Below the pieces are notes generated by a model. It was not told the DNA's origin, searched no databases, and saw only the letters and a program-made list of their open reading frames with translations. A stretch of 64,000 bases of DNA. It comes from Verrucomicrobiia bacterium (lineage in GTDB: Bacteria > Verrucomicrobiota > Verrucomicrobiia > Limisphaerales > Fontisphaeraceae). A program made the position numbers and the translations under genes. Every line of letters starts with the position of its first letter. The first letter of the stretch is position 1. Where the stretch lies: NCBI GenBank assembly GCA_026414565.1, contig JAOAIT010000018.1, positions 1-64,000 of the forward strand, given 5' to 3'. Of the stretch, positions 4,310 through 32,797 are shown in pieces.

Positions 4310-6013
4310 TCAGGTGTACTTAACGACTTCTTCAATAGTAGTATCACCATCAAAGATGCTGCGCAAGCCGTCTTCGCGCAGGGTGACCATGCCCAGCTCC
4401 ACCGCCTTCTGGCGGATGACGACGGTGGGGGCCCGTTCATTGATGAGGATGCGAATGGGCTCGGTGATGGGCAGCAGTTCAAAGATGCCTTTGCGGCCCT
4501 TGTAACCGGTGTCATTGCAGGTGTTGCAGCCGCGACCGTAGTAGAACATTTTGTCTCCGATGTCGTGGGGGGAGAGGTTGAGGAGGGCGAGCTGGCTTTC
4601 GGTGGGTTCAAAGGGGGTGCGGCATTTTTTGCAGATGGTGCGCACCAGGCGCTGGGCCAGTACGGCCATGAGCGAGGAGGAAATGAGAAACGGCTCGACG
4701 CCCATGTCAATCAAGCGGGTGACGGCGCCGGGGGCGTCGTTGGTGTGGAGGGTGCTGAGCACGAGGTGACCAGTCAGGGAGGCCTGGATGGCGATTTGGG
4801 CGGTTTCGACGTCGCGCATTTCGCCCACCATGATGATGTCGGGGTCCTGGCGGAGGAAGGCGCGGAGGGCCTTGCCGAAGGTCATGCCGACGGCTTCGTT
4901 GACGGCCACCTGCATGATGCCTTCGATGTCGTACTCCACCGGGTCTTCGATGGTCAGCAGTTTGGAGTCAATGGTGTTGACCTTGCGCAGGCAGGAGTAA
5001 AGGGTGGTGGTTTTGCCGGAGCCAGTGGGGCCAGTGACGACGATGATGCCGTTGGGCTGCTGGATGGCCTCGAGCATGTAGTCGTAAACATACTTGGGGA
5101 AGCCCAGGGACTCGATGTCGAGGTTGACGGCGGAGCGGTCGAGGACGCGGAGCACCACCGATTCACCGAACTGGGTGGGCAGGCAGGAGACGCGCATGTC
5201 CACCTGGCGGTTGCCCATGGGGAAATTGATGCGTCCGTCCTGGGGGAGGCGGCGCTCGGAGATGTTGAGATTGGCCATGACCTTGATGCGGGAGATCACG
5301 GGCAGGGCCAGGTGTTTGGGGGGCGGGGCCATTTCATAGAGGGCGCCGTCCACGCGGTAGCGGATTTTGAACTCGTCCTCAAAAGGCTCGAAATGGATGT
5401 CGCTGGCGCGGTCTTTGATGGCCTGATAGAGGACGAGATTGACGAATTTGATGATGGGCGTTTCGTTGGCCAGGTCCATCAACTCGCCCAGGTTTTCCTC
5501 GGAAACCTCGGTGATTTCGCGCGCGATGTGCTCGTCTTCGCCCAGTTCCTTGAGGGCGCTGCTGACGTCCACCCCCTCCTCGCCGTAGTAGCGGGAGATG
5601 GCCCGCTCAATGGCGTTGGGGTCGGCCACCACGACGATGATTTCGCGGCCGCTGCTGACGCTGATGTCGTCGGCCGCGGTCAAGTTGAAGGGGTCGGCCA
5701 GGGCAACCTGCACGGAATTGCCATAGACGGCGACGGGGACGCATTGGTACATGCGGGCGACAGCCGCCGGGATGGTGGCGATGACATCGGGAGGGATTTC
5801 CCGTTTTTCAAGCTCCACCACTTCGGTGCCGAGGGCTTCGGCCTTGACCTGGAGCTGGGTTTCCATGTCCATGAGGCCAAAGTCAGCCAGGATTTGGTGG
5901 ATGGGCTTGGCGGTGCGCTGGTGTTCCTGGACAACTTCTTCGATCTGCATGTCATCCAGCAAGGCGCGCTCGCGGATGAGATTCAGGAAGGGATCGTGGA
6001 TGAGGTCGGGCAT
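4310..6013 (-). CDS. PilB/GspE-type assembly ATPase, second copy
   Basis: This 567-aa secretion ATPase has an N-terminal GspE_N/MshEN-like region, Walker [11 protein letters not shown], the Asp box, Walker [10 protein letters not shown] and the His box [11 protein letters not shown]-terminal zinc-binding tetracysteine (CKKC ... CNTC) follows, typical of extension ATPases and absent from PilT. The role is hydrolysing ATP to drive pilin polymerisation at the cytoplasmic face. A TTG at 6019 lies in frame, but the ATG at 6013 gives the normal MPDLIHDPF start and is preferred. It sits between pilT and pilC in one minus-strand cluster. A second ATPase of the same type begins the cluster, so the two may serve different pili, or one may be a pseudopilus or type II secretion motor. 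Confidence 0.9.
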
Positions 6014-6025
6014 AGGCAACGCAAA

Positions 6026-7168
6026 CTAGGCGGTGGGGGCCGTGGCCGTGGCGGCGGGGGCGGTGCCGGCGCGGGCGGCCTCGGCGGCCTTGGCGATGTC
6101 GTATTCCTGGAGTTTTTGCATCATGGTAACGGGGTCCTGGCACTTATTGATGACCTCCTCACGGGCAATGATGCCCTGCATGTATTTTTCCATGAGGTAG
6201 CCGTCGAGGGTGACCATGCCGTATTTGGCGCCGGTTTGGATGTCGGAGGCGATGCGGAAGGTTTTGTTGTCGCGGATCAGGGCGGCAATGGCGGGGGTGT
6301 TGATCATGATTTCATACACCGCCACGCGCCCGGGCTTGTCGCAACGCGGGATGAGCAACTGGGAGATGACCGCCTGCAGCACGGTGGAGAGCTGGATGCG
6401 GATCATTTCCTGCTGGTTCATGGGGAAGGCGTTGACGATACGGTCGATGGTTTTGGCGGCGCCGGTGGTGTGCAGGGTGCCGAAGACCAGGTGGCCGGTT
6501 TCGGCGGCGGTGATGGCGGCCTCGATGGTTTCGAGGTCGCGCATTTCGCCGACGAGGATGATGTCGGGGTCCTGGCGGAGGACGCGGCGCAGGGCCTCGG
6601 CGAAACTGGGGACGTCCACGTGCACCTCGCGCTGGGTGACAATGGCCTTTTTGTGGTAGTGGTAATACTCGATGGGGTCTTCGATGGTGACGATGTGGGC
6701 GTCATCCCGCTCCTGGTTGATGATGTCAATCATGGAGGCGAGGGTGGTGGATTTGCCCGAGCCGGTGGGGCCGGTGACGAGGATGAGGCCGCGCGGTTTG
6801 TAGAGGAGGGTCATGATGGTCTGCCGCGGGAGGCCGATCTGCTCGAGGGTAAGGAGTTTGTTGGGGATCTGGCGCAGCACCAGGGCGAACTGGCCGCGCT
6901 CCTTGAACACGGAAACACGGAAGCGCGCCATGTCGCCAAAGGCGAAACCGAAGTCGGCGGTGCCGTTTTCGCGGACCTGCTGGATGTGGTCATCGGAGGA
7001 GATGCTGCGCATGAGCTCCTCGGTGTCTTCGTTGGTGCAGGGGGGGCCTTCGACGCGATGAAGGATGCCGTGCAGGCGAATGACGGGGGGCACCCCGACA
7101 CGGATGTGCAGGTCGGAGGCTCCTTCGGAGACCACCAACTGCAGGAGATCGGACATCTGATAGGACAT
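6026..7168 (-). CDS. pilT: Type IV pilus retraction ATPase PilT
   Basis: The 380-aa product starts [21 protein letters not shown], the usual PilT opening. It has Walker [10 protein letters not shown], the [14 protein letters not shown] Walker B, and the PilT-type FGTLHT his-box region followed by ARIG-like regulatory helices. The zinc tetracysteine of PilB is missing, as expected for a retraction motor. PilT depolymerises pili and powers twitching. The C-terminus carries a short Ala/Thr/Pro-rich tail (last about 20 residues), slightly longer than usual. The frame stays open upstream of 7168, but only this ATG gives the conserved N-terminus. It is flanked on both sides by PilB-type ATPases on the same strand. 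Confidence 0.93.
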
Positions 7169-7223
7169 AACGCTTACGAGCTTCTCAAGTCGGTTGTGTG
7201 AACACCAGGGGCATGGGTTAGGT

Positions 7224-8945
7224 TTAATCCACGTCGGCCAGCGTGGCGCGGATGACTTCTTCCGGGGTGGTAAGCCCGGCCAGCACCTTGCGGGTGCCGT
7301 CTTCACGCAGGGTGCGCATGCCGGTCTCGCGCGCCCGGGCGCGGAGGATGGAAGCCTGGACCTTTTCGTAGATCAGCTTGCGGGCTTCATCGTCCACCAC
7401 AAAAATCTCGAAAATGCCCATGCGCCCCCGGTAACCGGTTTTATTACAATCGCCGCAGCCGCGGCCCTTGAGGAAATTGGCGCCGGGGGTGTTGGGGTCG
7501 AGGTTGAGGACGCGGCGCTCGTGTTCCGTGGGGTCGTAGGGGGCGGCGCAGCGTTTGCAGACTTTGCGGACGAGGCGCTGGGCCATGATGGCGCGGGTGG
7601 AGGAGGCGACAAGGAATGGTTTGACGCCGATGTCAATCAAGCGCGTCACGGCGCTGGGGGCGTCGTTGGTGTGCAGGGTGCTGAAGACCAGGTGACCGGT
7701 GAGGGAGGCGTTAATGGCAATGGAGGCGGTTTCGAGGTCGCGGATCTCACCAATCATGATGATGTTGGGCGCCTGGCGCAGCATGGCACGCAGGGCGGCG
7801 GCGAAGGTCAGGCCGACGACTTCATTGACCTGCACCTGGTTGATGCCGCTGAGGAGGTATTCCACCGGGTCTTCCACCGTGATGATCTTGCGGTCGGGGC
7901 GGTTGATGAAATTGAGCACGGAGTACAAGGTGGTGGTCTTGCCGGAGCCGGTGGGGCCAGTGACCAGGATGATGCCGTCGGGGAGGCCGATGAGGCGCTC
8001 GAAGGTTTGCTGGTCGTCGGTGAAAAAGCCCAGTTCCGGGAGGCCAAGGCGCAACCCTTCCTTGTCCAGGATACGCATGACGATGCTTTCCCCGTGGTTG
8101 GTGGGGATGCAGGAGACGCGGAGGTCAATCATCTTGCCGCCGACGGAGGTCTGGATGCGGCCGTCCTGGGGGATGCGCCGCTCGGCGATGGACATGTTGG
8201 ACATGATTTTGATGCGGCTGATGATGGAGGCCTGGAGCTTTTTCGGGGGGCCTTTGATTTCATGCAGCACACCATCAATGCGGTAGCGGACGCGGAAGGA
8301 CTTGGAGAGGGGTTCGAGGTGGATGTCCGAGGCGCGCATTTTGAAGGCCTCGACGATCATGTTGTTGACCAGGCGGATGATGGGGGCATCGGATTCGACG
8401 ACGGAGCCGTCGTCTTCGCCCGCGGCCTTGGTCATGGCCTGCACCGCCACATCCCCTTCGGTGATGTTTTGGATCATCATCCCCACCTGATCGTCCTCGG
8501 CGCCGTAGTACTTGGAGAGGGCGGCGTCAATCTCGGCATCGGAGGCCACTTTGACCTCGATTTCCATCTTCAAGGCATGGTGGAGGGCGTCGATGGTATC
8601 GAGGTCGGAGGGGTCGGAGAGGGCCACGGCCATGGTGTTGCCGTGTTTGTAAATGGGGATGGCGCGGTAGCGTTTGGCGAGGTCACGGCGCAGGGAGGAA
8701 ATGACACTGTCCTCAATGCGCAGGTCCGCCAGTTGCACCACTTCGGCGCCGAAATACACGGCTTTGGCGTTGGTGACATCCTGGGGGGTAATCCACCGGC
8801 GCGCCAGGAGTGTATCCACCACGCCGGCGCCACCGGCTTCCGCTTCCTGCCGGGCTTGAGCCACCTGGTCATGGGTCACAACGCCCATGTCCATGAGCAG
8901 GTCCAATAAATAATCGTCTTTGGCAGCCACAAAATTGGTTGTCAC
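7224..8945 (-). CDS. pilB: PilB/GspE-type assembly ATPase, first copy
   Basis: The 573-aa (or 583-aa) extension ATPase has an N-terminal MshEN-like domain, Walker [11 protein letters not shown], Walker [13 protein letters not shown], His box STLHTNDAP, and zinc cysteines CKRC plus CGDC near the C-terminus. It should drive pilus assembly. No ATG fits: a GTG at 8945 preceded by AGAAAGG gives [17 protein letters not shown], and another in-frame GTG lies at 8975. The first is preferred. It is the first gene of the pil cluster and has a good minus-strand promoter at 9001-9030. The copy downstream of pilT is a clear paralogue with a different N-terminal domain. Which of the two is the true PilB cannot be decided from sequence. 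Confidence 0.9.
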
Positions 8946-9000
8946 TGCCGCCGGGCCTTTCTGGGGGACTCCCACCGGCGGCGTATGGAGTTCTGATAAA

Positions 9001-26860: not shown

Positions 26861-28588
26861 ATGTTCGAAAAACTCAAACAACTTTTCAAAAAGCCGGCGC
26901 CTGCACCGGCTGTTTCCAAGCCCGCACCTGCAGCACCTGCACCGGCTTCTGCTGCACCGGCCAGGCCTGCAACAGCGCCTGCGCCTTCGACTCCGGCTCC
27001 ATCGAAGCCTGCCGCTCCCGCTCCCTCGCCAGCTCCGGCCCCGACAGCGGTGCGGACGCCGACAGGGGATGAACTGCCCATTCCGTTGCAGGCCATTGTC
27101 GAGAAGCTGCCGGCGTCACTGGCGCGCAAGGTGGCCAATCCCAATGAGGTGTTGCTACTTCCCAAGAAATTGGTGACGCAGCAATTGCCATCGGGGGCGG
27201 TGAGATTTGCGTTTGCCGATCTCCGGAAGTTGGCGCCGCCGGGGGCCTTACTGGAGGCGGGAGAAGAGGACCAAAAGATGGTGGAGATTCCGCTAAGTGA
27301 GATTCTGCCCAAGTTGTCCCCGACGGATTTTGGCCGCCGAACGGATCAAAAGGTGATTGAGATACCCGATGAGGTGGTGGGGTTGTTTGGTCCCAAAGGC
27401 GAGCCGGTAACGCCACCAAAGACGACGGTGATCGGAGTTGCGCCAGTCGAGACTCCAACCCAGAAACCCGCGCCTGCCCCTGCGGCACCGTCCAAACCAA
27501 CAGCCTCGCCGCCGGCCAAGCCGGCGCCGGCGCCTGCGCCCGCGACCGCTCCGGCGGCAATCAAGGCTCCAGAGCCGCCGCCGGCCGCTCCACCACCGGC
27601 CCCCAAACCGGCGGAGCCGGCAGGTCCATTGAAGGTTTCCGCCGATTTATTGCAGCAGATGACGGCGGCAACAGCGGCTAAACCTGCTGCGCCGGCATCG
27701 GCGCCGGCGCCAGCTCCTGCCGCCGCACCTGCGGCCGCGCCGTCCGCGCCGCCGGGCATGGTGGCCGTGCCGGTGACGGCAGTCAGCGCCAACTGGCCGG
27801 ATGCCATCAAAGCGGAGATACAACAGTTCAAGTTGGGTGAGGGCAGTCTCCTGGTGCCGGTGGGGGAAATGGAGAAGGCGTTGAAGAGCGGCAAGGTGGC
27901 TTTTAGTTGGAGCCAGTTGTTGTCCTGGACGAATCCCTCGCTGAAGACGACGCAGGGCAATGTGACGGTGGAGCTGGCGTTGAAGGTGGTGGCGCCGCTG
28001 TTCCTGGCGGTGAGCAAGTTGCCGGCGCCGAAGAAGAAAGTGGAGATCGATCCGAACATTCCCGACATGTTCGTTGGCAAAGGGGCCCCGGCGGCCGCGC
28101 CCGCGGCGGAAAGCGCGCCGGCCGCGCCCGCGGCACCGGCAGCCGCACCTGCTCCCGCGCCAGCAGTTGCGCCGGCGGCCGCTCCCAAACCAGCGCCCGC
28201 TCCGGCACCGGTGCCGGCGCCTGCACCCGCCAAGCCGGCGATTGCCGCGCGCACCCCGGCGGAAGCGGTGCAGGTGGCCATCAAACTGCCCGGGGTTGCC
28301 GGGGCGGTGGTGGCTTCGGAGGATGGATTGTCGGTGGCCGCGCAGGTCTTGCCGCCGCTGGCGGGGGACAAGGTGGCGGCCTTTGCGCCGCAACTTTTCC
28401 AGCGCACCGCGCAATATGCGAAGGATCTGGGGGCGGGCGCATTGGAGGGGCTTTCCTTCACTTGCAATGGGACGGCCTGGCGGGTGAGCAAGTGTGGGAA
28501 GGTGTATCTGGCGGTGGTCAGCCAGCCGCAGCGGGCGCTTCCGCTGGCGGAACTGGCGCAACTGGAACGCGAGCTGTCGAAAATGTAA
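26861..28588 (+). CDS. Pro/Ala-rich multidomain protein ending in a roadblock/LC7 domain
   Basis: In this 575-aa protein a basic amphipathic start (MFEKLKQLFKKP) leads into long Pro/Ala linkers. Between them sit a folded segment at about 71-180 (IPLQAIVEKLPASLARKV ... VRFAFADLRKL ... VEIPLSEILPKL) and a related copy at about 300-408 (VPVTAVSANWPDAIKAEI ... VAFSWSQLLSW ... ELALKVVAPLFL). About 464-575 is a roadblock domain (LPGVAGAVVASEDGLSVA ... KVYLAVVSQPQ). Roadblock domains dimerise and bind Ras-like GTPases; the mglA gene starts 12 nt downstream. By analogy with MglB it may be a regulator or scaffold of that GTPase. The repeated domain is not one I can name. Linkers total about 250 residues. 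Confidence 0.75.
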   Translation: MFEKLKQLFKKPAPAPAVSKPAPAAPAPASAAPARPATAPAPSTPAPSKPAAPAPSPAPAPTAVRTPTGDELPIPLQAIVEKLPASLARKVANPNEVLLLPKKLVTQQLPSGAVRFAFADLRKLAPPGALLEAGEEDQKMVEIPLSEILPKLSPTDFGRRTDQKVIEIPDEVVGLFGPKGEPVTPPKTTVIGVAPVETPTQKPAPAPAAPSKPTASPPAKPAPAPAPATAPAAIKAPEPPPAAPPPAPKPAEPAGPLKVSADLLQQMTAATAAKPAAPASAPAPAPAAAPAAAPSAPPGMVAVPVTAVSANWPDAIKAEIQQFKLGEGSLLVPVGEMEKALKSGKVAFSWSQLLSWTNPSLKTTQGNVTVELALKVVAPLFLAVSKLPAPKKKVEIDPNIPDMFVGKGAPAAAPAAESAPAAPAAPAAAPAPAPAVAPAAAPKPAPAPAPVPAPAPAKPAIAARTPAEAVQVAIKLPGVAGAVVASEDGLSVAAQVLPPLAGDKVAAFAPQLFQRTAQYAKDLGAGALEGLSFTCNGTAWRVSKCGKVYLAVVSQPQRALPLAELAQLERELSKM

Positions 28589-28600
28589 CTCAACAACACT

Positions 28601-29218
28601 ATGGCGATCATCAATCAAGCCACGAAGGAGCTGCAGGTCAAAATCGTATATTATGGGCCGGCCAAATGTGGCAAGACCACCAATCTGGAGCAGGTGCATG
28701 CCAACGTGCAGGTGGCCAGCCCCGAGAACAAAGGGAAGATGGTCTCGCTGGCCACCAGTTCGGACCGCACGCTGTTTTTCGACTTCATGCCCCTGGAGGC
28801 GATGGCCATCAAGGGATACAAGACCAAATTCCAACTGTACACGGTGCCGGGCCAGGTGATCTACAACACCACCCGGCAGTTGGTGCTGCGCGGAGTGGAT
28901 GGCATTGTGTTTGTGGCGGACAGCCAGTACGACAAGATGCAGGAGAACGTGGAGAGCTTTCAAAACCTGATTGACAACCTGAAATCGCTCAAACTCAACC
29001 TCGACGACATTCCGTACGTGTTGCAGTACAACAAGCGGGATTTGCCGAATGTGGCGCCGATCGAGTACATGGAGTTCCTGCTGAACAACCGCGACGTGCA
29101 GGTGCCGTCTTTTCCGGCAACGGCCACGAAATGCGAAGGGGTCTTTGAGACGATGAACATGATTGTGCGGATGCTGCTGCACAAGTTCATCAATTTGGGC
29201 GGGAAGAAGATTGCCTGA
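28601..29218 (+). CDS. mglA: MglA-type small GTPase
   Basis: The 205-aa GTPase closely resembles Myxococcus MglA: IVYYGPAKCGKTTNLEQV (P-loop, 19-27), DRTLFFDFMPLE, YTVPGQVIYNTTRQL (the MglA switch-II with TVPGQ in place of DxxGQ, 80-93), GVDGIVFVADSQ and the guanine-specificity NKRD (144-147). MglA switches the poles and directs type IV pili and gliding motors in myxobacteria. The pil genes at 2970-8945 make a motility role plausible here. It is flanked by two roadblock-domain genes, upstream by 12 nt and downstream by 1 nt, so all three should form one operon. Confidence 0.95.
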   Translation: MAIINQATKELQVKIVYYGPAKCGKTTNLEQVHANVQVASPENKGKMVSLATSSDRTLFFDFMPLEAMAIKGYKTKFQLYTVPGQVIYNTTRQLVLRGVDGIVFVADSQYDKMQENVESFQNLIDNLKSLKLNLDDIPYVLQYNKRDLPNVAPIEYMEFLLNNRDVQVPSFPATATKCEGVFETMNMIVRMLLHKFINLGGKKIA

Positions 29219-29219
29219 T

Positions 29220-30014
29220 ATGGGCTTTCCGCAACTGATCGAGGAGGATTTTCAGTGCCTGGATCAGGCGCTGAAAGACCTGCTCGGCAAAACAGAAGCC
29301 GAGGCAGCCCTCCTGGTCGAAAAAGCCGGTCATTTGATTCATCAGGCTGGCGAACAGAATGCCTTTCCCCCGGATGTGCTGGCGACGCTGGCCTCCAATT
29401 CCTTCAATGCGGTGCAGTTCATGGCCGGGTTGCTGAATGAAGACAAGTTTCCCGGCCTTTATCAACAGGGGGAGCGCTGCAGCACGCTGATGCTCAATGT
29501 GGATGAGCACTGCATGTTGGTGGTGATTTTCCGGGCCGACATCAGTGTGGGGGCGGTGCGGTACTATGCGCAGGAGACGGCCAAGACGATTGCGCAGCAA
29601 ATCAAGGTGGCACAGGAGCGCGCGCCGTCGGTGAGTTTTGATTTGACGGATTTGAATGTGTCGGATGTGCAGGCTTTGTTTCGCCGCAAGGACGAGCCTG
29701 CGGCGCCAGCGCCCGCCGCTGAAGCGGCGCCGGAGAGCGCCGTGGCGGCTGACCCACCGGAACCGGAGACGCCTATGGAACCCCTCATGGCCAAACGTGG
29801 CCCCTACATTGTTTCGCTGAATGCCGGCACGCATTGGTGGTGTGCTTGTGGACGTTCCCAAAGCCAGCCGTTTTGTGATGGAGCGCACAAGGGCACGGGA
29901 TTGAAGCCGCTGGCCGTGGAAGTGACAGAAACCAAGCGCGTAGCGCTGTGCGGCTGCAAACACACGCACAACCCGCCGTATTGCGACGGCACCCACGCCA
30001 AGCTGCCAGCCTGA
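29220..30014 (+). CDS. Roadblock/LC7 protein fused to tandem CDGSH iron-sulfur motifs
   Basis: The 264-aa protein has residues 1-155 that read as a roadblock/MglB-like domain (VLATLASNSFNAVQFMAGLL ... GERCSTLMLNVDEHCMLVVIF). An Ala/Pro-rich linker spans about 156-190. The rest is a double CDGSH module: CACGRSQSQPFCDGAH (Cys208, Cys210, Cys219, His223) and CGCKHTHNPPYCDGTH (Cys244, Cys246, Cys255, His259). Each matches C-x-C-x2-(S/T)-x3-P-x-C-D-G-(S/A/T)-H, the Cys3His1 ligand set of [2Fe-2S] mitoNEET-type clusters; tandem pairs occur in CISD3-like proteins. The ATG at 29220 starts right after mglA's stop. A redox-controlled GTPase partner is an inference. An in-frame ATG at about 29775 could also yield a separate CDGSH peptide. 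Confidence 0.85.
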   Translation: MGFPQLIEEDFQCLDQALKDLLGKTEAEAALLVEKAGHLIHQAGEQNAFPPDVLATLASNSFNAVQFMAGLLNEDKFPGLYQQGERCSTLMLNVDEHCMLVVIFRADISVGAVRYYAQETAKTIAQQIKVAQERAPSVSFDLTDLNVSDVQALFRRKDEPAAPAPAAEAAPESAVAADPPEPETPMEPLMAKRGPYIVSLNAGTHWWCACGRSQSQPFCDGAHKGTGLKPLAVEVTETKRVALCGCKHTHNPPYCDGTHAKLPA

Positions 30015-30215: not shown

Positions 30216-30271
30216 AACGGAGTGGTGGGCAGGCAGATTGCCCGGCGCAACAGCCTTCCCGCGTGTGTCCC

Positions 30272-32797
30272 ATGCAAGTCCATCCCACAGGCCCGCGAGC
30301 GCAGCCGCACTGGCAAAGCTTTTTTCTTCACATTGTTTCGCCGGCCATTTTAACGCTGGCCCTGTTTCTGGTTCTGATCTTTGGCGTGATCATTCCCACC
30401 ATGCGCAAGAACATCATCGAGCGCAAAAAGGAAATGATCCGGGAGCTGACGCATGCGGCGTGGAGCGAGCTGGCGGGGATGTACGAGCAGGAGCGGCTGG
30501 GGGTGTTGACACGGGAAGCGGCGCAGCAGGCGGCCATCAGCCGGATTCAGAACATGCGGTACGGGGAGGATGGGAAAGATTACTTCTGGATATCGGATAT
30601 GAAAACCCAGATGGTCATGCATCCGTACCGTCCGGATTTGAACGGCCAGAGCTTGCTGGAGTACGCCGATCCCACCGGCAAAAGACTGTTTGTGGAATAC
30701 ACGCGGGTGGTGGCACGGGAGGGGGCCGGCTATGTGGATTATTATTGGCAATGGAAAGATGATGAGTCGCGGGTGGTCCCGAAACTTTCGTATGTCAAGG
30801 GTTTTGCGCCCTGGGGATGGATTGTCGGGACCGGCATTTATTTGGAGGACGTGCGGGCGGAGATCCGGCAGGTTACGCGCCGGGTGCTGCAGATATCGGT
30901 GGGCATCGCCGTGATCATTGCGGGTTTGCTGGCCTATATCAGCCAGCAGAGCTTGAACATGGAGCGACAACGGCGCCGCGCCGAGCTGGCCCTGCGGCGT
31001 TCCGAGGAGAAATACCGCCTGTTGGTGGAGAGCGCTGCCGAGGGGGTCTTGCTTGTCCTGCAGGATCGGCCGGTCTTTGCCAATAAAACCCTGCTCAGCC
31101 GGCTCGAGTACACGGAGGAGGAGCTGACGCAACAGCCCCTGGAGGCGGTGCTGCAATTGCTGCCCAATGGCAGCGTGGACCGGGCGCGCGCAGAGCGACA
31201 TGCCCGTTTAATCAACAAGCGGGGTGAGGCGGTGGATGTGCTGGTCACGGCCACGCCAGTCATCATGGGGGAGCAAACCGGCCAGATTTTAACCCTGAAA
31301 GACCTGGCGGCGCGCAAGCGGACGGAGGAAACGCTGGCGCGACTGGTGGCGGACCTGCAAAGTTTGTTGCCGCTGGCCACCCGTTCCATCAAGACAACGC
31401 CGTTGAAAATCAGCACGTGCAGCCTGGATACGCCCATATCCGCGGCGGCGGCGGCGATGACACGCAACCAGAGCAGCGCCATGCTGGTGCTGTCGCCGAC
31501 GGGCGTTCCCATCGGCATTGTCACGGACCAGGACTTGCGCGCGCGGGTGCTGGCGGCCGGCTTGTCCGTGTCGCGGCCGGTGGCGGAGGTGATGAGCGCG
31601 CCGCTGGTGCGCATCGAGGAGCGGGCCCTGTTGTTTGAGGCCGCGCGCCTGATGTATGAGCGGCAGGTGCAGCATCTGGTGGTGGCGGATGCGACCGGGG
31701 CGGTGAAGGGGATATTGACCAGCGCCGAGGTGCTGCATGCGCAGCGGCATGCCATCGGGACGCTGCTGGGGGAAATTCAGGAGGCGCCCACGCCGGAAGC
31801 GCTCCGGGACAGCCGGGCCAAGCTGCCGGTGTTTGTCAAGGCGCTGCTGGAGAGCGGGGCGCGGGTGGAAAGTGTTACGCGCATCATGACGGCAGTATCG
31901 GATGCCGTCTTGAAACGGCTGATTGAACTGGCGGAGGCGCGGCTGGGGCCGGCGCCGGTGGCGTATGCGTTTGTGGTGCTGGGGAGCGAAGCGCGGGAGG
32001 AGCAAACCCTGGCCACCGATCAGGACAATGCCATCATCTACGCCGATGTGCCGCTCGAACGCAACGCAGCCGTGCAGCAATGGTTCCTGCGACTGGGCGA
32101 AACCGTCTGCGGCTGGCTGGATCTGGTGGGCTACCGGCGTTGCAAGGGGGAGGTGATGGCCTGCAATCCCAAATGGTGCCAGCCGCTCAGCCGGTGGCGC
32201 CAGTACTTCAGCGAGTGTGTGGCGGCCAATCGGCCGCAGGATCTGCTTGATGTGAATGTGTTTTTTGATTTTCGCTGCGTTTATGGGGAGGCCGCCCAGG
32301 TGCATCAACTGCGCGAGCATCTGCATCTGGAGCTGGAGGGGGAGCAGCGGCATGCCTTTTTCTTTCACCTGGCGGAAACCACCTTGCAATTCCGTGCGCC
32401 GCGCGGATTCTTTGGCAACATTCAACTGGAGAGGTCGGGCGAGCATCCACCCGCGTTTAACGTCAAGGCGGCGTTGATTCCGTTGGTGAACTTTGCGCGC
32501 ATTTATGCGCTGCAGCGGCGGGTCGCGGAGACGAATACGCTGGAGCGCCTGCATCGGTTGCGGGATCTGGGGGTGTTGCTGCCCGGCAGTCACGATGAAC
32601 TGGTGCAGGCTTACACCGCCCTGATGCAGATGCGGCTGGCGCATCAGGCGGCCCAGATTGGGCGCGGCGAGCCGCCGGACAATTTTCTGCCGCTGGAGGA
32701 GCTGACGCAAATCGAGCGGTCGGTGTTGAAAAAAATATTTGCCGACATTGCCGTGTTCCAGGCGCGGTTGCAAACGGACTTTGCCAGGACGACTTGA
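30272..32797 (+). CDS. Membrane receptor: Cache - PAS - tandem CBS - DUF294 nucleotidyltransferase-like
   Basis: In this 841-aa protein an N-terminal TM helix (about 21-42) is followed by an extracytoplasmic Cache domain (45-200; YGEDGKDYFWISD ... HPYRPDLNGQ), a second TM helix (207-224) and PAS (245-350). Two CBS motifs (about 372-495; VTDQDLRARVL and LTSAEVLHAQ) follow. The DUF294 putative nucleotidyltransferase region has GSEAREEQTLATDQDNA (571-587), and a helical DUF294_C domain (about 690-830) follows. Cytoplasmic CBS-DUF294 proteins often accompany acetate-type symporters, and here DUF485 and actP lie 1.4 kb downstream; addition of a membrane Cache sensor is unusual. GTG 30263 is an alternative start. 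The metallophosphoesterase start codon follows 6 nt after this gene. Confidence 0.85.
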   Translation: MQVHPTGPRAQPHWQSFFLHIVSPAILTLALFLVLIFGVIIPTMRKNIIERKKEMIRELTHAAWSELAGMYEQERLGVLTREAAQQAAISRIQNMRYGEDGKDYFWISDMKTQMVMHPYRPDLNGQSLLEYADPTGKRLFVEYTRVVAREGAGYVDYYWQWKDDESRVVPKLSYVKGFAPWGWIVGTGIYLEDVRAEIRQVTRRVLQISVGIAVIIAGLLAYISQQSLNMERQRRRAELALRRSEEKYRLLVESAAEGVLLVLQDRPVFANKTLLSRLEYTEEELTQQPLEAVLQLLPNGSVDRARAERHARLINKRGEAVDVLVTATPVIMGEQTGQILTLKDLAARKRTEETLARLVADLQSLLPLATRSIKTTPLKISTCSLDTPISAAAAAMTRNQSSAMLVLSPTGVPIGIVTDQDLRARVLAAGLSVSRPVAEVMSAPLVRIEERALLFEAARLMYERQVQHLVVADATGAVKGILTSAEVLHAQRHAIGTLLGEIQEAPTPEALRDSRAKLPVFVKALLESGARVESVTRIMTAVSDAVLKRLIELAEARLGPAPVAYAFVVLGSEAREEQTLATDQDNAIIYADVPLERNAAVQQWFLRLGETVCGWLDLVGYRRCKGEVMACNPKWCQPLSRWRQYFSECVAANRPQDLLDVNVFFDFRCVYGEAAQVHQLREHLHLELEGEQRHAFFFHLAETTLQFRAPRGFFGNIQLERSGEHPPAFNVKAALIPLVNFARIYALQRRVAETNTLERLHRLRDLGVLLPGSHDELVQAYTALMQMRLAHQAAQIGRGEPPDNFLPLEELTQIERSVLKKIFADIAVFQARLQTDFARTT

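Follow-up and report, generated by a model that had tools for sequence, protein, structure and literature searches.

The window, by which we mean the whole 64,000-nucleotide stretch of DNA analysed here, lies in contig 18 of a genome assembled in 71 contigs (4.3 Mb, 97% complete). It carries on its plus strand a run of three closely spaced genes, the last of which (29220-30014) encodes in a single frame a 264-aa protein that joins an MglB-type roadblock domain, through a linker, to a tandem CDGSH unit. The features of the locus are as follows:

26861..28588, + strand: first gene of the operon, encoding an Ala/Pro-rich protein of 575 aa with a C-terminal roadblock/LC7 domain (Robl_LC7 2.5e-6, residues 475-553)
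28601..29218, + strand: mglA, encoding a small Ras-like GTPase of 205 aa (M. xanthus MglA 5ymx, 7.8e-63)
29220..29690, + strand: MglB-type roadblock part of the fusion, residues 1-157 (Pfam, NCBIfam and structure matches)
29640..29690, + strand: MglB C-terminal (Ct) motif, residues 141-157 (aligned to the end of 6izw_B)
29691..29777, + strand: linker rich in Pro, Ala and Glu, residues 158-186 (translation)
29778..30011, + strand: tandem CDGSH unit, residues 187-264 (zf-CDGSH; 3tbn and 6avj matches)
29841..29888, + strand: first CDGSH motif, C208, C210, C219 and H223 (translation)
29949..29996, + strand: second CDGSH motif, C244, C246, C255 and H259 (translation)

The gaps between these genes are 12 nt (first gene to mglA) and 1 nt (mglA to the fusion gene, whose ATG stands at 29220), and the three would form an operon read as a single transcript, in agreement with the linkage to mglA reported in the initial annotation. 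A relative of the C-terminal part of the 575-aa protein precedes mglA in most related loci, and the order with mglB directly behind mglA is also common to most of them. The Chthoniobacter flavus record (L003) contains relatives of all three operon genes, the third as a plain MglB, and was discarded as a candidate fusion. The 575-aa protein harbors repeated short hydrophobic modules before its C-terminal roadblock domain and may be, besides the MglB, another roadblock partner for MglA, as is MglC in Myxococcus. Among the neighbors in the window are pyrK/pyrD-like genes upstream of the operon and, behind the fusion gene, a gene (30263-32797) for an 844-aa protein with a Cache sensor, a weak PAS match, two CBS domains and DUF294 nucleotidyltransferase parts. 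Some 20 kb from mglA, three T2SSE-type ATPase genes (one PilT-like, two related) lie in a row on the minus strand (4310-8975). In the genome G041, a gene that lies upstream of the mgl operon and diverges from it (L073:9623-10846) encodes a response regulator receiver with DUF4388; families at that upstream distance recur in more than 50 genomes, and their identity with the receiver-DUF4388 gene is putative.

Both halves of the fusion were recognized above the curated Pfam cut-offs, with Robl_LC7 at residues 16-104 (1.9e-7) and zf-CDGSH in two stretches (1.3e-17). The NCBIfam MglB model covers residues 6-142 (5.2e-17) with 62.4 bits, which misses the equivalog cut-off of 200; because this model (GTPaseActivMglBThm) takes its name from Thermus-like MglB and its cut-off was missed, the roadblock half is filed as an MglB-like homologue and not as that equivalog. 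A comparison with solved structures matched residues 6-155, Ct region included, to MglB of Myxococcus (6izw, 1.9e-11), and residues 187-261 to 3tbn, a tandem CDGSH protein from bacteria (3.6e-23), and to CISD3 of humans (6avj, 6.3e-20). The CDGSH half follows the CISD type 6 pattern, in that two C-x-C-x8-CDGxH motifs, separated by some 20 residues, retain all eight ligands, and two labile [2Fe-2S] clusters, each held by three Cys and one His, are predicted from these ligands and from the relatives 3tbn and 6avj. The profile and structure matches and the translation thus bear out an MglB-like roadblock domain with a tandem CDGSH pair and eight ligands, as first annotated; the added label 'mitoNEET-type' (type 1) has to be replaced, since in the CISD scheme (PMC3174974) the pair belongs to type 6, the tandem and monomeric CISD3/Miner2 proteins. 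The predicted structure was left unused since it was too poor (mean pLDDT 43.6, model from five sequences). A free CDGSH product starting at Met185, which is preceded by GGAG, was rejected as a general feature; the congener G001 keeps Met185 but not GGAG, and Met is absent from this position in the remaining three fusions.

An unbroken fused frame was found in at least five of the 320 genomes of the order, distributed over three families: the window's genome, its congener G001 and G002 belong to one family, and G013 and G004 to two further ones. All five retain both full ligand motifs and a linker without stop codon, though linker length ranges from near zero in G004 to about 50 residues and is long and variable in four of the five. 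A comparison of the window with the congener G001 (93% identity, genome in one contig of 4.7 Mb) gave a dS of 1.18 over the fusion gene and dN/dS values of 0.033 for the roadblock part, 0.043 for the linker and 0.039 for the CDGSH part, with 0.008 for MglA; purifying selection acts strongly on the two halves and also acts on the linker. That two genes were joined by a sequencing error, as considered in the initial annotation, or by an assembly error has a practically nil chance, and nothing was found in its favor: the same open frame is present in five independent genomes, one of them a single 4.7 Mb contig, and between window and congener synonymous changes are many and amino-acid changes few on either side of the join. 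This reading is refuted because the fused frame is open in independent genomes, and the fusion is a true one. A sample of 387 genomes of the phylum showed no further fusions; the window's genome and G043 were the only ones there in which mglB and CDGSH matches shared a contig. A profile search of genome contigs (5 loci) yielded no further fusion, and a plasmid search returned seven records with the CDGSH half only and no fusion. The depth of the fusion search is this phylum, and the rarity of the architecture applies within it. A Limisphaerales bacterium record (L004) was rejected as a fusion because stops precede its CDGSH gene. As for relatives without the CDGSH half, named at the outset as counter-evidence, the congener and the family member G002 keep it, but in the order most genomes with mglB have it unfused.

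In the window's own genome, the single MglA match found and the two roadblock matches all lie in the mgl operon, making the fusion the sole MglB found, and CDGSH matches occur solely in the fusion gene. With no second CDGSH protein found in this genome, the fused copy must serve any general CDGSH role. This favors the main rival to the reading that we prefer below, well possible though short of probable, in which the CDGSH pair is a tethered passenger that keeps its ordinary iron, Fe-S or electron work on a flexible linker and perhaps gains a place in the cell, leaving MglA unaffected. The long, variable Pro/Ala/Glu linkers of four of the five fusions would suit such a passenger, as would the fact that most MglBs have no CDGSH; however, G004 is almost without a linker, and the CDGSH pair recurs beside mglB and may have fused twice.

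The recurrence beside mglB was counted in 97 genomes, of which 58 bear mglB: five are fused, nine have a CDGSH gene directly downstream and tail to tail (on the opposite strand, in eight families), 15 carry it at another place, and 29 gave no CDGSH match. In this count G002, whose two matches overlap, stands as fused on account of its unbroken frame, and the 15 include G040 and G084 (weak, partial match). The tail-to-tail pair is present, for example, in G078 and G043. In a set of 86 labelled loci, 24 were called tail-to-tail; both motifs are whole in 22, and the remaining two are cut by a contig end (G073) or a decayed remnant (G040). Frequencies were taken from the 97 genomes because the 86-locus set is biased: G215, G207, G216, G222 and G228 were included on account of an adjacency already seen, and in addition G207 has a 979-base gap and four loci lie too near a contig end to judge. 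The remnant in G040 (L080:5963-6073) is tail to tail with mglB, and an intact copy resides on another contig of that genome. Over the 97 genomes, 29 have both genes, 29 mglB only, nine CDGSH only and 30 neither, and the Fisher p of 0.0065 carries no weight because it is uncorrected for relatedness or incompleteness. The tail-to-tail count likewise does not equal a number of independent events, as neighbors share descent. Besides the family that holds MglB and CDGSH, shadows and one low-complexity cluster, no family was found downstream of mglB in more than five genomes. Neighboring ORFs were called mechanically, so that opposite-strand shadows were counted too. One downstream family, at +98 in 10 genomes, overlaps the CDGSH genes and was taken as their shadow, and one other numbers 5 genomes; the merged low-complexity cluster spans 78 genomes, mostly upstream of mglB but extending to +1984.

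Since a separate CDGSH gene adjoins mglB in nine of the 58 genomes, the fusion joined genes that are often neighbors, although fusing a tail-to-tail neighbor would require the CDGSH gene to have turned round. Most unfused MglBs terminate at residue 156-170, no more than about ten residues from the Ct motif, which makes the natural MglB terminus the point where the CDGSH unit was attached; the exceptions in length are G047 (189), G051 (182) and G140 (222), with G049 misread in the computation. The MglB of G140 (L053, gene from 2620, about 222 aa) has a C-terminal extension other than CDGSH. In a tree of MglA plus MglB from 81 loci, four fused rows group together (95/64) and G004 joins them weakly (85/20), with the unfused, long-branched G047 among the fused rows, and the fused label needs two changes. 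The CDGSH half of G004 is sister to the separate copy of the same genome (99/92), which, together with its near-nil linker, suggests a second, separate fusion event in G004; a single origin was not rejected (p-AU 0.171, over only 76 columns). The fusion is missing from most genomes of the order that bear mglB, so MglB has no general need of CDGSH.

The Ct motif, behind which the CDGSH unit was added, is well maintained, with D141, L142 and F154 conserved in >95% of 81 loci, and the C-terminal extension aligns at the place of the M. xanthus Ct-helix, the helix itself being predicted. For M. xanthus it is reported that exchange is driven by the Ct-helix of one protomer of MglB, which binds an MglA pocket away from the nucleotide, while the MglB dimer face gives the GAP action (PMC6785124, PMC11016934); Asn37 and Arg98 of MglB are described as necessary for this GAP action to be full. 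In the 6izw_B alignment these residues are Ala36 and His97 in the fusion; in the MglB of T. thermus, too, the Arg98 position is occupied by His, so the two residues may not define the MglB family. The P-loop of the window's MglA (GPAKCGKT) has Ala at the position of Ras Gly12 (Gly21 in M. xanthus), as do 72 of the 81 loci, with Gly in seven and two not read. In Thermus MglA, a G21V change is reported to lower kcat sevenfold, the residue there being Val and here Ala (PMC3000849). Because MglA has Ala at the Gly12 position and the MglB half has Ala36 and His97, the GAP action of the fusion on MglA is unsure.

Our preferred reading, held tentatively and at not quite an even chance, is that the fusion is a sensor-coupled MglB, in which the state of the [2Fe-2S] clusters tunes MglA via the adjacent Ct-helix, with the siting of type IV pili as the likely output. 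The roadblock part would dimerize and bind MglA as MglB does, and the CDGSH pair would hold two [2Fe-2S] clusters; the state of these clusters (reduced or oxidized, intact or lost) would alter the reach of the Ct-helix to the MglA pocket, shifting the GAP/GEF balance on MglA and, as its output, the siting of type IV pili. This suggests that cell redox or iron state may feed into the MglA polarity and motility switch. NEET clusters are described as labile, and the reduction of the mitoNEET cluster as taking up a proton (PMC6006223). Type IV pili are a plausible output because the genome contains nine PilT-model matches, four of them above cut-off and three of the nine at 4616-8366 of the window; PilT/PilB-type ATPases are present in this genome, and MglA of M. 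xanthus is reported to stimulate type IV pilus formation.

By analogy with M. xanthus, the position of the CDGSH unit directly behind the Ct motif, the exchange-active part there, favors the sensor-coupled reading; so do the unbroken, conserved fusions under purifying selection, the CDGSH gene adjoining mglB more often than any other downstream gene, and the possible second fusion. The sole MglA, MglB and CDGSH found in the genome share one operon, and a sensor-roadblock fusion of like kind is described from the phylum (PMC4476040), which lends it a parallel. Against it, the linker range from near zero to about 50 residues speaks against one fixed allosteric coupling, no CDGSH was found in 29 of the 58 mglB-bearing genomes and a copy away from mglB in 15, tail-to-tail genes are not co-transcribed, and the residues at the Gly12, Asn37 and Arg98 positions leave the GAP action unsure. 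A wider version, which we consider rather unlikely, would make the protein an Fe-S-gated exchange and GTPase-activating factor, whose cluster state frees or hides the Ct-helix; across the order, the separate CDGSH protein encoded beside mglB would be a partner of MglB in trans. If it were true, the Fe-S input to MglA would predate the fusion, which, perhaps made twice, hard-wired it.

The influence may also run in reverse, with MglA and MglB placing the CDGSH domain so that polarity sets the site of Fe-S or electron-transfer activity, a reading we judge improbable. We know of no polar Fe-S partner, which counts against it, and no gene of the operon points to one. In its favor, MglB is reported as a polar protein in M. 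xanthus (PMC6785124), and NEET proteins are described as handling clusters and electrons (PMC6006223). A structural role, in which the clusters merely stabilize MglB or help it to oligomerize, appears very improbable: the tandem unit is described as a compact monomeric fold that could act as a clamp (PMC3174974), but NEET clusters are reportedly labile (PMC6006223) and the MglBs of related genomes manage without CDGSH.

Of the nearest known systems, the fusion resembles M. xanthus and T. thermophilus MglB, the roadblock GAP/GEF of MglA, in its roadblock fold by sequence, its C-terminal motif and the position of its gene beside mglA, and it differs from them by the linker and tandem CDGSH unit behind the Ct motif. 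HGbRL of Methylacidiphilum infernorum, of the same phylum, likewise combines a cofactor domain and a roadblock in one chain; it has an N-terminal haem globin, whereas the fusion has a C-terminal Fe-S unit, and it is a paralogue apart from an mglA-mglB-like pair, whereas the fusion is the sole MglB and adjoins mglA (PMC4476040). The signal relay of HGbRL is proposed there and not shown (PMC4476040). Response-regulator-roadblock fusions similarly place an input domain on an MglB-like roadblock, theirs being an N-terminal receiver and ours a C-terminal Fe-S unit (PMC4316618).

As the initial annotation had supposed, no described roadblock-CDGSH protein was found in the literature searched, mainly open-access papers, and HGbRL is the nearest precedent in kind, one that it had not named (PMC4476040). 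Papers pairing CDGSH with roadblock were, by title, animal proteome or expression studies only, and nothing in the literature searched tied MglA/MglB to CDGSH, or MglA and roadblock to iron-sulfur. Input domains joined to roadblock regulators are already known; what is new here is that the input domain is an Fe-S one and that it sits on the sole MglB found in the genome. A readable [2Fe-2S] absorbance on a small-GTPase regulator would make redox or iron control of a polarity switch testable with two purified proteins, and the tandem CDGSH proteins of bacteria, about whose roles little is known, would gain a concrete partner. The matter also bears on the ways, other than the Frz/RomR route of Myxococcus, in which environmental state is passed to MglA. 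On the CDGSH side, the fusion shares its tandem unit with CISD type 6, and fusions are described for type 5 (with glutamate synthase) and type 7 (with DUF1271), while the seven CISD types as described in the accessible part of that survey include no roadblock/LC7 fusion (PMC3174974). Another arrangement of such units was observed in an Omnitrophota record (L006:6001-6466), where two tandem-CDGSH units follow each other in close succession in different frames.
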